DNA of 48,875 nucleotides, from positions 1-48,875 of the forward strand of contig JAIDNJ010000053.1 in the NCBI GenBank assembly GCA_029063895.1, given 5' to 3'. The notes beneath the pieces are model-generated. The model had not been told where the DNA came from and did not search any database. It worked only from the letters and a program-made list of their open reading frames with translations. The DNA comes from Muribaculaceae bacterium (GTDB lineage: Bacteria; Bacteroidota; Bacteroidia; Bacteroidales; Muribaculaceae). A program made the position numbers and the translations under genes. Positions 41,716 through 48,808 of this stretch are shown piece after piece; position 1 is the stretch's first letter; every line of letters begins with the position of its first letter.

Positions 41716-42444
41716 TCACGAGCGAAAACGTTGAGGAAGCGACTCATTTATAATTTCAAATGTTTGCTTCATAACCGGTTGCAAATCGGCATCGGGAGCC
41801 GGGGCAGGAATCGGATGATGAATCGTGAGCTTTATCGTGCCGTATCGCGGAAGGAACCTTGTGCGCGGAAGCACCTGAAAAGCACCGTCGATTGTCACAG
41901 GTACAAGCGCGAGGCCAAATTCACGTGAAAGCTGATAGGCTCCGCGTTTGAATCGTCCCATTTTGCCGGTGAAAGTACGCGAGCCTTCGGGAAAGACGAC
42001 GAGTGAATCACCATCCTTGAGAGTATGCTCGGCACCGTGAAACGTATGCAGAACCGCCGCAGAGCTTGAGTTGTCGACAAAAATGTGTCCGGCCTTTTCA
42101 CAAGCTAAGCCGACAAACGGAATTTTACGCAGACTCTTTTTCATCATCCATTTGAAATTATGATCAAGATAGCCATAAATTGAAAAGATGTCATAAGCGC
42201 CCTGATGATTGGCTACAAAGACATATGAAGTGCCTGTATTAATATTTTCGCGACCCGACACACGGACCCTTACAAACATGAGCACACACCAGGCCTTGGC
42301 CCAGATGTGAGGAGGATAATAGCCCCACCATCGACCATTAAAAAGAACTGAACCGACAGCAGTAACAAGAGCTGTAATGATTGTCAGGACAATCAACACG
42401 GGCAAAGCGAAACAAATCTGGTATATCCGATAAAGTACAATCAT
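41716..42444 (-). CDS. 1-acyl-sn-glycerol-3-phosphate acyltransferase
   Basis: VFVANHQGAYDIFSIYG, LVVFPEGSRTFTGKMGRFKRGAYQLS. Confidence 0.94.
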   Translation of the reverse strand: MIVLYRIYQICFALPVLIVLTIITALVTAVGSVLFNGRWWGYYPPHIWAKAWCVLMFVRVRVSGRENINTGTSYVFVANHQGAYDIFSIYGYLDHNFKWMMKKSLRKIPFVGLACEKAGHIFVDNSSSAAVLHTFHGAEHTLKDGDSLVVFPEGSRTFTGKMGRFKRGAYQLSREFGLALVPVTIDGAFQVLPRTRFLPRYGTIKLTIHHPIPAPAPDADLQPVMKQTFEIINESLPQRFRS

Positions 42445-42521: not shown

Positions 42522-43721
42522 ATGAAGATTTTTAAAAGCATATTACCGGTTTTGATGGCTGCTCTGATTTTTTTTCAAGGCAACGCCTACGAAATCAAGA
42601 CCGATTCCATACCTGACACCGCCATATCGCTGCTGATATGTTCGCCGGGCTCCGAGATTTACGAGCTGGAGGGACACGCTGCCATGCGCATTGTTCATCC
42701 GATTTATGGCGACGTCACTGTCAATTGGGGACTTTTTGACTTCAACACTCCAAACTTTGCATACCGTTTTACTAAAGGGGAAACCGACTACCGGGCCGGA
42801 GCAACTCCGACCGACCTTTTTGTCGGCCTCTATCAACGGGAAGGCCGCACAGTCACCGAGATTCCTGTAAAACTGACACCCGACGAGGCCAAACGAGTCA
42901 TAGATCTCGTAACCGAGAATCTAAGGCCCGAAAATCGTGTTTACCGATACAACTACCTATATGACAACTGCTCGACCCGCCCTCTTGCCATCATAGAAAA
43001 AGCTACCGGAGACAGCATTTCGCTCAAATTACCCGATGATATCGCCGAGGGGGAAACATTCCGTACACTCATGAGCCGGTATCACCAAAACTACCCATGG
43101 TATCAGTTTGGTATTGACCTTGCCCTTGGTAACGGCATCGATAAAAAGGTAACACCGCGCGACGCGACATTTGCTCCGGTCATTCTTCTCAACCAAATTT
43201 CAGGACAAAATGACCGGTTCGGACAACCGGTTGTCCTTACATCACCCGTCACAACCAACGGTGGACCCGCCGGACCGACACCGTTGTATCTCACTCCTAT
43301 ATTTATTGGCTGGATTGTTTTTGCGATAGCACTTATCCTGACAGTGGCAGGAACGAGACTGAAAAAAGTGGCTCTATGGTTTGACCGCGTCTATTACCTG
43401 GCCGTCGCATTGTCCGGACTTTTACTGACCTTTCTTATATTTGTATCGGTCCACGAAGCCACATCGCCCAACTGGTTATACCTTTGGTTGAACCCTTTGG
43501 CCTTTACAGTTGTTATAGGAATCGGGACAAAACGGCTTGTAACTTTGGTTTTGTTCTACCAATTAATTAACTTTGCATCATTAATTGCACTTTGCATCAT
43601 AGCGGCAACCGGAATCCAATCGCTAAACGCGGCATTTTATCCGTTGATTTTGGCCGATTTGCTCCGCTCCGCAAATTATATTTATAGAAATAAATCATGT
43701 CTGTCAAGAAAAAGCTACTGA
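42522..43721 (+). CDS. DUF4105 / Lnb N-terminal-like periplasmic-domain membrane protein
   Basis: CSPGSEIYELEGHAAMRIV, NWGLFDFNTPNFAYRFTKGETDY, YLYDNCSTRPLAIIE, C-terminal TM helices. Confidence 0.88.
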   Translation: MKIFKSILPVLMAALIFFQGNAYEIKTDSIPDTAISLLICSPGSEIYELEGHAAMRIVHPIYGDVTVNWGLFDFNTPNFAYRFTKGETDYRAGATPTDLFVGLYQREGRTVTEIPVKLTPDEAKRVIDLVTENLRPENRVYRYNYLYDNCSTRPLAIIEKATGDSISLKLPDDIAEGETFRTLMSRYHQNYPWYQFGIDLALGNGIDKKVTPRDATFAPVILLNQISGQNDRFGQPVVLTSPVTTNGGPAGPTPLYLTPIFIGWIVFAIALILTVAGTRLKKVALWFDRVYYLAVALSGLLLTFLIFVSVHEATSPNWLYLWLNPLAFTVVIGIGTKRLVTLVLFYQLINFASLIALCIIAATGIQSLNAAFYPLILADLLRSANYIYRNKSCLSRKSY

Positions 43722-45319
43722 CTTCTCGCCTTGGGAGTGTCCTCGTCGCCTCGATGGTGACAATGGGTATCTCGGCTCAACTTCCGGCCAAGCGTCCGAC
43801 GCTTGTGGTCGGAATCGTCGTTGACGGACTTTCGCTTGACCAGCTCAATCTACTCAAAGGATATTTTGGTGCCGACGGTTTCAACCGCCTCATTAACAAA
43901 GGCGTAACCATCACCGACCTTGATTTTGGCTCGGCTCTTGACCCGGCGGCCGCCTCGGCTCTTCTTTATACCGGAGCATCGCCGTCGATCAACGGTGTTG
44001 ACGCTTCGACTGTCTATGACCGCACTTCGCGCCGGGCCATATCGTCGTTTCTCGACCAGTCGACGCTCGGCAACTTTACCGACCAGACTCTGTCGCCCAA
44101 AGCGATGAGAGTGTCGACCATCGGTGACGAGATAAGAATCTCGACCGGCGGGCTGGGTCATGTATATGCCATAGCCCCATCGGCCGAGCAGGCTCTCGCC
44201 CTTGGAGGTCACGCGGCCAACAGCACTTTCTGGATCAACGACGTAACCGGAAAATGGTCTACATCGACTTTTTATAAGGATGTTCCCACTCCGGTCATCA
44301 ACCGCAACCATCGCGACCCGCTCGAATTCAAACTCGACACTATAGCGTGGACATCCCTTCGCGACGCTGCTGATTATCCCGACATGCCGTCCTACAAAAA
44401 GCTGTTCTCGTTCCGTCATGTTTTCCTACGCAACGACCCCGACCGCTACCGCAAGTTTGTAGCATCGCCTATGGTCAACCGCGAGGTTACATCACTTGCC
44501 GGCGAATATATCAAGTCGATGAATCTTGGCAAAGGTGAGAATTTTGATATGCTCAGCCTTGCCTACACGCTGTCACCCTACCTCTATGGCAAAGAGAATG
44601 ATTCACGCATGGAGCTGATGGACAGCTACCTGAGACTTGACAACGAGCTGGCCGCTCTTTTCAAGGCAATCGACACGGCCGGTCCCGGCATGAACAACAC
44701 ACTACTGTTTCTCGCAGGAACACCGGCATCGACGACGACTCGCCGCGAAGAAGAAAAATGGGCTATTCAGTCGGGCGAATTTTCGCCACGACGCGCCATA
44801 GCGTTGCTGAACATGTATCTTATCCCGCTGCTCGGCAACGGCGAATGGATTACAGGTTATCACGATAATAAATTTTACCTTAACCACGAGTTAATAAAAG
44901 AGCGGGACCTCAGCCTGAAGGACGTGCGCAAATCGGCGGCCGATTTTCTCAATCGCATGGCAGGTGTGGCCGAGGCATTCTCTATCGACGATATCATTGA
45001 CGGACGCGCAACCGAGACAATCGCTATTCCGCGCCGCAATGTCAACATCGAGACAGCCGGCGATGTATATGTATCGCTGATTCCGGGATGGGAAGTAGTC
45101 GATGACGGCACTCCTATGCCAAAGACCCCGACCTATCCTATGGCTCAACGCTTTGTCGCTCCAATCGCTCCAGGATTTATTCTTGCACCCGATGTCGCCC
45201 CTACAACCATCACCACTCCGGTTGATGCAAGGGTGATAGCACCGACAATAACATCAATCCTACGCATACGGTCTCCCAATGCGTCGCTTTTGCCACCTTT
45301 GCGCCTCAATGCACGCTGA
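43697..45319 (+). CDS. Alkaline phosphatase superfamily (PafA-like) protein, apparently degenerate active site
   Basis: LVVGIVVDGLSLDQLNLLKGYFGADGFNRLINKGV, ALLYTGASPSINGV, GGHAANSTFWINDVTGKWSTSTFY, DSYLRLDNELAALFKAID. Confidence 0.85.
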   Translation: MSVKKKLLTSRLGSVLVASMVTMGISAQLPAKRPTLVVGIVVDGLSLDQLNLLKGYFGADGFNRLINKGVTITDLDFGSALDPAAASALLYTGASPSINGVDASTVYDRTSRRAISSFLDQSTLGNFTDQTLSPKAMRVSTIGDEIRISTGGLGHVYAIAPSAEQALALGGHAANSTFWINDVTGKWSTSTFYKDVPTPVINRNHRDPLEFKLDTIAWTSLRDAADYPDMPSYKKLFSFRHVFLRNDPDRYRKFVASPMVNREVTSLAGEYIKSMNLGKGENFDMLSLAYTLSPYLYGKENDSRMELMDSYLRLDNELAALFKAIDTAGPGMNNTLLFLAGTPASTTTRREEEKWAIQSGEFSPRRAIALLNMYLIPLLGNGEWITGYHDNKFYLNHELIKERDLSLKDVRKSAADFLNRMAGVAEAFSIDDIIDGRATETIAIPRRNVNIETAGDVYVSLIPGWEVVDDGTPMPKTPTYPMAQRFVAPIAPGFILAPDVAPTTITTPVDARVIAPTITSILRIRSPNASLLPPLRLNAR

Positions 45320-45394: not shown

Positions 45395-48300
45395 ATGTCA
45401 TTTTTAGGAATTTTAGGCAAACTCTTTGGAAACAAGTCGCAGCGCGACCTCAAAGAGATACAGCCGATTGTAGACCGAATCAACGCACTCGGTCCCGAGA
45501 TGCAAAAGCTCTCAAACGACCAACTCCGTCAAAAAATCACCGACATCCGTGCCGAGCTCGCCGCAGCCTATGCCGAAGATGAGACAGCAGTAGCTCAGCT
45601 CAAAGAAGAGGTTGAAAACATGCCGTTTGACCAACGTCAACCCCTCTGGGACAAAATCGACGCTCACGAAAAAAATATAATCGAGACTCTCGATACAGAA
45701 CTCGACCGCGTACTTCCCGAGGTTTTTGCCGCCATGCGCGAAACCGCCGCCCGTTTTGCCAAAAACGAGACAATCGAAGTAACTGCCACCGAACTCGACC
45801 GCGAACTCGCCGCCAAAGGAAAGGATTTTGTTTCAATCGAGGGAGACAAAGCCATCTGGAAAAATCACTGGATCGCCGGCGGTAGCGAAATCGTGTGGGA
45901 CATGATTCACTACGACGTTCAGCTCATTGGCGGTATCGTGCTTCACCAAGGCAAAATCGCCGAGATGGCTACCGGTGAAGGTAAAACCCTCGTAGCCACA
46001 CTCCCCGTATTCCTCCGCTCGCTTTCAAAACGCGGTGTTCACGTGGTGACTGTCAACGACTACCTGTCAAAACGTGACTCGGAGTGGATGGGTCCGCTCT
46101 ATATGTTCCACGGAGCTACAGTCGACTGCATCGACAAGCACGAGCCCAATACACCGGCTCGCCGTGCAGCCTATAACTGTGACATCACATTTGGTACAAA
46201 CAACGAATTTGGTTTTGACTACCTGCGCGACAACATGGCGATGACTCCTCAGGACCTCGTGCAGCGTAAACATTATTATGCAATCGTCGACGAGGTTGAC
46301 TCGGTGCTCATCGACGATGCCCGTACCCCGCTTATTATCTCAGGTCCAGTTCCCAAAGGCGACGACCAGCTTTTCAACGATTACAAAGCCAACGTCGAGA
46401 AGGTTGTCAACGCGCAGCGTCGCCTTGTAACCCAGATTCTCGCCGAGGCCAAAGATAAACTGGCATCAGACGATAAAGATGTGCGCAAAGAGGGAGCACT
46501 CCTGCTATTCCGTGCGTTCAAAGGTCTCCCCAAAAACAGCGCACTCATCAAGTTCCTGAGCCAGGAGGGTATGAAAAACGTACTGCTTGAAACCGAAGCT
46601 TACTATCTTCAGGACAACGCCCGTGAAATGCCTGTCGTGACCGACCCGCTTTATTTCATCATCGATGAGAAAAACCGCTCGGTCGAACTCACCGACAAAG
46701 GTATCGACGAGCTCACCGGCAAATCAAATGACCCCACATTCTTTGTGCTTCCCGACATCGCCGCCGAGCTTTCACAACTCGAGACAATCGAAGACAAGGC
46801 CGAACGTCAGGCCAGAAAGGACGCCGCCATGCAAAATTACGCGATCAAGGCCGAGCGTGTCCACACCGTCACCCAGCTTCTCAAAGCCTATACCCTCTTT
46901 GAAAAAGATGTCGAGTATGTAATCGACGACAACAAAATCAAGATTGTCGACGAGCAGACCGGCCGTATCATGGAAGGTCGCCGCTACTCTGACGGACTCC
47001 ACCAGGCAATCGAGGCCAAAGAAGGTGTCAAGGTCGAGGCGGCCACTCAAACGTTTGCAACAATCACGCTCCAGAACTACTTCCGCATGTATCACAAGCT
47101 GGCCGGTATGACCGGTACTGCCGAGACCGAGGCCGGCGAGTTCTGGGATATCTATAAACTCGATGTGGTGACTATCCCCACCAACCGTCCCATCGCCCGT
47201 ATAGACATGAACGACCGCGTTTACCGCACAAAACGCGAAAAATACAAAGCGGTCATCGACGAGATTGTCCGTCTTCACGAGATTGGACGCCCGGTGCTTG
47301 TCGGTACAACATCGGTTGAAATCTCGGAACTTTTGAGCCGTATGCTCAAGATGGCCCACATCGACCACAAAGTGCTCAACGCCAAATATCACCAGCAGGA
47401 GGCCGAAATCGTAGCCTTTGCCGGTCTTCCCGGAGCCGTAACCATCGCGACCAATATGGCCGGCCGCGGTACCGACATCAAGCTTCCCGCCCAAGTCAAA
47501 GCGATGAAAGACACCGGCGTGGAAAAAGGCAAGGAAGTCGGTGGTCTCGCCATCATCGGTACCGAGCGCCACGAATCGCGCCGTGTCGACCGTCAGTTGC
47601 GCGGACGTTCGGGACGTCAGGGTGACCCCGGTTCATCGGTATTCTATGTGTCGTTTGAAGATCAACTCATGCGTCTCTTCGCAACCGACCGCGTCATGAA
47701 AATGATTGACCGTCTCGGTCTTGAAGAGGGCGAGATGATTGAATCGGGAATGGTTACCCGCGCCATCGAAAACGCTCAGAAACGTGTCGAGGAAAACAAC
47801 TTCGGTATCCGTAAACGTCTTCTCGAATATGACGACGTGATGAACAAGCAGCGTACCTACATCTATGCCCGCCGTCATCACGCACTCATTGGTGAGCGTG
47901 TAGGTATCGACCTTGAAAATATGCTTTTTGACGCTATCGAGAACCTCGTCAACAACTATGACCAGCCCGGTGATTACGACGACCTGTCAATGGAACTGAT
48001 GCGCATCTTTACAATCGAGCCGCCGTTTGATGCCGCTACCTTTGCGGGTCTAACCAACGAGGAACGTGTGGAAAGAATCCACAAAGCCGTTGCCGAGACC
48101 CGCGAACGCCGCTCCGAACTCATCGCCGGAGTGGCTATGCCCGTCATCAAAGACTGGGTTGAAAACCGCGGAGCCCAGGGCAAAATCGCCGTTCCCATCA
48201 CCGATGGCAAACGCATCTTCAACATCGTTTGTGATATCAACGAGGCCTATCGCACCGAGTGTCGCTCTATCGTCAAAGAATGGCACAAGACCATCCTGCT

Positions 48301-48808
48301 CGTTTCAATCGACGAGCTCTGGAAAGAGCACCTCCGCGAACTCGACCAGCTGCGTCAGTCGGTTCAGAATGCATCTTACGAGCAAAAAGACCCGTTGGTA
48401 ATCTATAAAGTTGAATCGTTCCACCTCTTTGAAACGATGCTCAACAACCTCAACGTGAAAACCCTCTCGGCCCTCATGCGCGGTCAAATCTTTATACAGC
48501 CGCCACGCCCGCAGGCTCCCGTCGACAACACATCGACCACTGCCGATGTCCGTGACAACAAAGCCGAGGCACCCAAACCTGCCCCCGAGGTCAAAAAAGC
48601 AATGCCTGAGCGTCCTACCGACTACTCGCGCTACCGTACATCCCGCGCCGAGAATCCCGGTGAAGACAACCGTCGCGCCGCATCGGCACGTCAGGGTGAA
48701 CAGTCAGCTCCAAGCCCGGTCAAGGTCGGCCCGAAAGTAGGACGTAACGATCCATGTCCCTGTGGCAGCGGCAAAAAATATAAAAACTGCCACGGACGCG
48801 GACTGTAA
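45395..48808 (+). CDS. secA: Preprotein translocase subunit SecA
   Basis: [70 protein letters not shown]-terminal [18 protein letters not shown]. Confidence 0.99.

Follow-up and report, generated by a model that had tools for sequence, protein, structure and literature searches.

PafA (PDB 5TJ3, NCBIfam NF042991) is the described phosphatase that most resembles the protein considered here, and it has been assigned a role in phosphate mineralisation, with the gut PafA sequences all being placed with Bacteroidales (PMC8812569). PbgA/YejM, a second system of relevance, has a periplasmic domain of the alkaline phosphatase superfamily which lacks the typical catalytic residues and is joined to five helices at the inner membrane, and its structure binds cardiolipin (PMC7018646). 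As YejM was also reported as a metalloenzyme (PMC7576196), its status is debated. The third system is the lipoprotein N-acyltransferase Lnb. A passage of PMC12994826, citing Armbruster et al. 2024, gives DUF4105 as the Bacteroides lipoprotein N-acyltransferase, and conserved catalytic His and Cys residues are used across the superfamily (PMC12994826).

The window, by which we mean the whole 48,875-nucleotide stretch of a Muribaculaceae bacterium contig (JAIDNJ010000053.1) that was analysed, encodes on its forward strand lnb (42522-43721), a gene for a PafA-fold pseudophosphatase (43697-45319) and, 75 nt downstream of the latter, secA (45395-48808). The overlap of 25 nt that the first-pass annotation had reported between the pseudophosphatase gene and a DUF4105/Lnb-like neighbour is exact, and the neighbour contains both Lnb domains, Lnb_N (PF13387, E 9.3e-22) and 5TMH_Lnb (PF25221, E 1e-28). 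The pseudophosphatase of 540 aa is predicted to be exported through a signal-like segment at residues ~7-25, and beyond this segment its chain has no membrane domain. It matched PafA 5TJ3 over residues 32-535 (E 6.3e-31), the PafA model NF042991 (E 5e-63, 213.4 bits, without reaching the cut-off of 650 bits) and Pfam PF01663 (E 4.5e-9). An AlphaFold2 model built with 48 sequences was confident (mean pLDDT 87.8, pTM 0.86), and when it was searched with Foldseek the top solved structures were PafA entries 5TJ3 and 5TOO (TM 0.78-0.83, E about 1e-39), followed by the Sphingomonas phosphatase SPAP. Sequence and predicted structure thus agree that the protein is a full-length PafA homologue, and the PafA-type scaffold that had been read from a few motifs is borne out by the Foldseek search, in which PafA was the best match.

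The resemblance to PafA in full-length homology, predicted fold and scaffold motifs does not extend to the active site. We take D38, T79, N100, K162, R164, D305, H309, D352, H353 and H486 to be the PafA nucleophile (T79), zinc ligands (D38, D305, H309, D352, H353, H486) and phosphate contacts (N100, K162, R164); the mutant PafA entry 5TOO (T79S, N100A, K162A, R164A) agrees with this numbering. At these ten columns, in the same order, the window protein has D, P, S, S, E, P, G, T, P and P, so that nine of the ten are replaced. The sole catalytic or metal residue kept is D43 (43823-43825) in the D38 column, which is D or E, rarely N, family-wide. The nucleophile column is occupied by P83 (43943-43945) and by A, P, R, G, K and others in the relatives, with Thr in only 1 of 115 rows. 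Ser is present in place of N100, S162 and E164 (44180-44188) stand in the columns of K162 and R164, and the zinc ligands D305 and H309 correspond to P294 and G298 (44576-44590) and D352-H353 to T342-P343 (44720-44725). The segment-by-segment loss with only the first Asp retained, as claimed from the letters of the sequence, was therefore correct in detail.

The same losses were seen in the relatives, for which a site table of 115 group rows was compiled (in four rows the sites had no sequence, and another two lack some of them). In these, D305 is replaced by P, N or V, H309 mostly by S, G, T, A or K, D352 mostly by T, and H353 by P or G. The lnb-context homologues that were read keep 0-2 of the ten residues and homologues elsewhere in Bacteroidales 0-6, save a few that are intact or nearly intact (L188, L190, L193, L200, L203, L028), while the class-level homologues outside Bacteroidales that were read (L232-L255) keep 10/10. 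The Bacteroidales orthologues with shared losses and an lnb neighbour, for which the first-pass annotation had proposed a search, were hence found, with the loss being family-wide. As 10/10 residues were recovered by this alignment for each class-level PafA homologue read, we consider it sound and reject a misalignment masking intact residues. The active-site columns had a mean of 4.62 bits in intact PafA, a value that 10,000 random draws of columns never reached, and 1.83 bits in the lnb clade, which equals background (24% of random draws were as low). Positions conserved in the lnb clade were those of the scaffold together with the new G125, T128, N372, R523 and R525. No His or Cys conserved at >=90% was found across the lnb clade, and this speaks against an active site having been rebuilt. 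Judged by sequence and model, members of the window protein family are probably non-catalytic PafA-fold proteins.

The loss of the site is not accompanied by decay of the gene. Its dN/dS was 0.03-0.09 over all computable pairs, about half that of lnb, and in the six close pairs with dS < 1 it was 0.039-0.063 vs 0.127-0.164 for lnb. The reading frame is intact in the orthologues read across Bacteroidales. The pseudophosphatase gene is under strong purifying selection, and decay or a frameshift artefact is ruled out by the open frames and dN/dS. With the conserved scaffold and the confident model of a PafA fold, these values support the earlier suggestion of a selected pseudoenzyme rather than decay.

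The partner Lnb is a separate protein in the window and has no sequence similarity to the pseudophosphatase. Its score against NCBIfam NF051878 was 281 bits, under the cut-off of 550 that only 3 of the 392 genomes of the order pass. H54 was invariant in 166/166 and C152 in 167/167 sequences, and as this Cys/His pair is kept and both Lnb domains are present, Lnb looks active by its sequence, in contrast to the pseudophosphatase. A search of the window's own genome detected Lnb and gave no match for Lnt, the unrelated lipoprotein N-acyltransferase. Lnb was reportedly first described only in 2024, and we found no published description of an Lnb-linked pseudophosphatase in a search of literature and locus tags, the founding Lnb study lying outside that search.

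The order lnb, pseudophosphatase gene, secA was found at almost every locus whose flanking DNA was long enough and in 16 family codes, and this fixed context is a further difference from PafA. Among the 62 top-scoring genomes lnb was adjacent in 60 (57 by coordinates and L153, L175 and L178 by inspection). The two exceptions both belong to family f29, where at L187 the gene adjoins secA and lnb is located not upstream but elsewhere. In f40 the gene accompanies lnb without secA. In f64 (L278, L279, L281) lnb directly adjoins secA and the pseudophosphatase gene is absent, which suggests its clean loss and indicates that Lnb does not need the partner everywhere; the pseudophosphatase gene is likewise missing from two lnb-containing f86 genomes of 1.0-1.2 Mb. 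The distance matrices of pseudophosphatase and Lnb over 117 loci were correlated (r 0.88; partial r given SecA 0.82, permutation p 0.001), the partial correlation of Lnb and SecA given the pseudophosphatase being 0.07. As SecA is slow and partial and the likeness of the matrices may partly reflect similar rates of two fast genes, we use this correlation as supporting evidence only. At two f11 loci (L149:3272-6960 and L260) a pseudo-PafA, with 1/10 residues kept in L149, lies downstream of Lnt, and the order-wide search detected Lnb in both genomes as well. A general association with Lnt, the other acyltransferase, was rejected, as the pair was confined to these two f11 genomes among the ORFs scanned. 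The window also has a probable 1-acylglycerol-3-phosphate acyltransferase gene (41716-42444, reverse strand), divergent from lnb, which was detected by tblastn only in close relatives (L003-L005, L032, L063) among the loci compared.

In f40, lnb and the pseudophosphatase gene form one continuous ORF in five genera (g57, g360, g354, g340, g345). In the fusion L168 (G062), of 924 aa, residues 27-375 are covered by the Lnb domains and 422-861 by the phosphodiesterase-type domain, and further fused ORFs are present in G603, which is near-identical to G062 and counted with it as one fusion, and in the diverged G630, G624, G610 and G615. The catalytic residues are also missing from the fused proteins of G062, G603, G630, G624 and G610. 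In L271, L272 and L273 the two ORFs directly abut, separated by a single stop. An assembly error could explain one lineage, but five genera have fused ORFs that differ from one another (32-45% identity across genera), which argues against it. Hydropathy, taken from a plain scan and not from a topology predictor, gave five helices after Lnb_N and then an extra hydrophobic segment before the phosphatase-like domain, ending in a signal-peptidase-like ATA motif. As read from sequence, the fusions strongly support a partnership with Lnb. The joint envelope function that the 25-nt overlap had hinted at is supported well beyond that hint by the 60/62 adjacency, the fusions and the partial correlation.

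A homologue was present in 32 of the 40 nearby genomes, and PafA-like matches at E 1e-20 were obtained in 239 of the 392 Bacteroidales genomes. In a tree of 118 sequences, from which the catalytic columns were omitted and in which deep nodes are weak, the lnb-context proteins formed one group (SH-aLRT 98) that also contains L152, which is not adjacent to lnb. Partly decayed proteins from other loci form a grade outside this group, L149 is placed apart, and two intact sequences are intermixed with decayed ones. L193 and L203 of f59 keep 10/10 catalytic residues yet fall among the partly decayed proteins. A single clade of pseudoenzymes was not rejected by the AU test (p 0.41). As genomes with deep-branching relatives in Bacteroidales can have Lnt and no detected Lnb (e.g. 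G030, G037, G292), the linkage to lnb seems, on these sequence comparisons, to postdate the loss of catalysis. At L143, L146, L150 and L151, of deep Bacteroidales, partly decayed PafA-like genes lie near an apparent gldD, gldE and a GGGP-synthase-like gene, some of these loci also having an apparent ychF or transketolase nearby (all names assigned by eye from the N-termini). The orthologue L185 (G303) is of ~477 aa and apparently misses a central segment of ~40 residues of the model. Four metagenome-assembled genomes titled Clostridiales, Staphylococcus, Clostridium and Lachnoclostridium (L034, L053, L072, L084) carry the Bacteroidales-type locus, and their titles look wrong.

Taken together, we regard it as fairly probable that an exported, catalytically dead relative of PafA serves Lnb as a periplasmic accessory subunit. 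The partnership itself appears well supported by linkage and fusion in the sequences compared, and the molecular role is what we infer. The two proteins may interact directly on the periplasmic side of the inner membrane, the site of Lnb action, and in the fusions the extra segment after the five Lnb helices would put the pseudophosphatase on the side of the Lnb catalytic domain, although the ATA motif means that this segment could also be cut. PbgA/YejM offers a working analogy for a lipid-related role, which we do not extend to a claim of membership: it resembles the window protein in having a domain of the alkaline phosphatase superfamily without the usual catalytic residues, and it has five helices, as Lnb does, but its helices are in the same chain, whereas here, the fusions excepted, they belong to Lnb. 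By this analogy the pseudophosphatase domain might bring the phospholipid donor or the diacylated lipoprotein into position for Lnb, a detail that we hold to be rather doubtful. Only tentatively do we extend the reading to a two-part lipoprotein N-acyltransferase of Bacteroidales, in which a dead PafA derivative predating the linkage to Lnb has become the dedicated substrate- or lipid-handling subunit.

Several observations count against a subunit of Lnb, and some of them favour other explanations. The f64 and f86 genomes have lnb without the partner, the f29 gene stands beside secA with lnb elsewhere, partly decayed deep relatives are unlinked to lnb in genomes without detected Lnb, and Lnb by itself is said to complement the loss of lnt in E. 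coli. The deep relatives at other loci, such as the gldD/gldE region, in genomes with Lnt and no detected Lnb, and the retention of lnb without the pseudophosphatase gene in f64 would fit a pseudoenzyme under selection for an envelope role of its own (lipid, glycan or phosphate binding) that is older than the Lnb link. The gene would then merely share an old operon with lnb and secA, and the f40 fusions would be a local accident. We consider this unlikely, as in f40 the gene travels with lnb in the absence of secA and is fused to it in five genera, and as its distances to Lnb correlate far beyond those to SecA. The f40 arrangement also weighs against a service to the Sec translocon, for instance as a periplasmic lipoprotein-export factor to which the lnb linkage is secondary, a reading otherwise suggested by secA being the other neighbour at the same loci and by the f29 gene. 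As f64 keeps lnb and secA together without the pseudophosphatase gene, and as SecA is cytoplasmic and the pseudophosphatase exported, such a service appears improbable.

A PafA scaffold that has acquired new enzymatic chemistry might be read from the D38 column, usually kept as Asp or Glu, and from G125, T128, N372, R523 and R525, which are conserved in the lnb clade only. It would, however, have to work with no His or Cys at the >=90% level in that clade, with zinc-ligand columns filled mostly by P/N, S/G/T/A/K, T and P/G, and with an old pocket conserved no better than background, and we consider it highly improbable. That the gene is a decaying pseudogene, open by chance, agrees with the lost active site but is contradicted by the low dN/dS and the intact ORFs across the order, which leave it a negligible likelihood. 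The accessory subunit of Lnb is therefore the reading that we retain.

The findings call for caution in annotation by homology, as automatic calls would tend toward alkaline phosphatase for such proteins, from which the role of PafA in phosphate mineralisation is not expected, and metagenomic counts of gut 'PafA' could include pseudophosphatases. Within one order the active site ranges from intact through partly lost to wholly lost, and this graded series is a useful natural record of an enzyme turning into a pseudoenzyme. Lnb makes triacylated lipoproteins in a dominant group of gut bacteria, in which the nutrient machinery of the surface consists largely of lipoprotein, and if the pseudophosphatase is a conserved dedicated partner of Lnb, the way in which the N-acylation step is reconstituted and studied would change.
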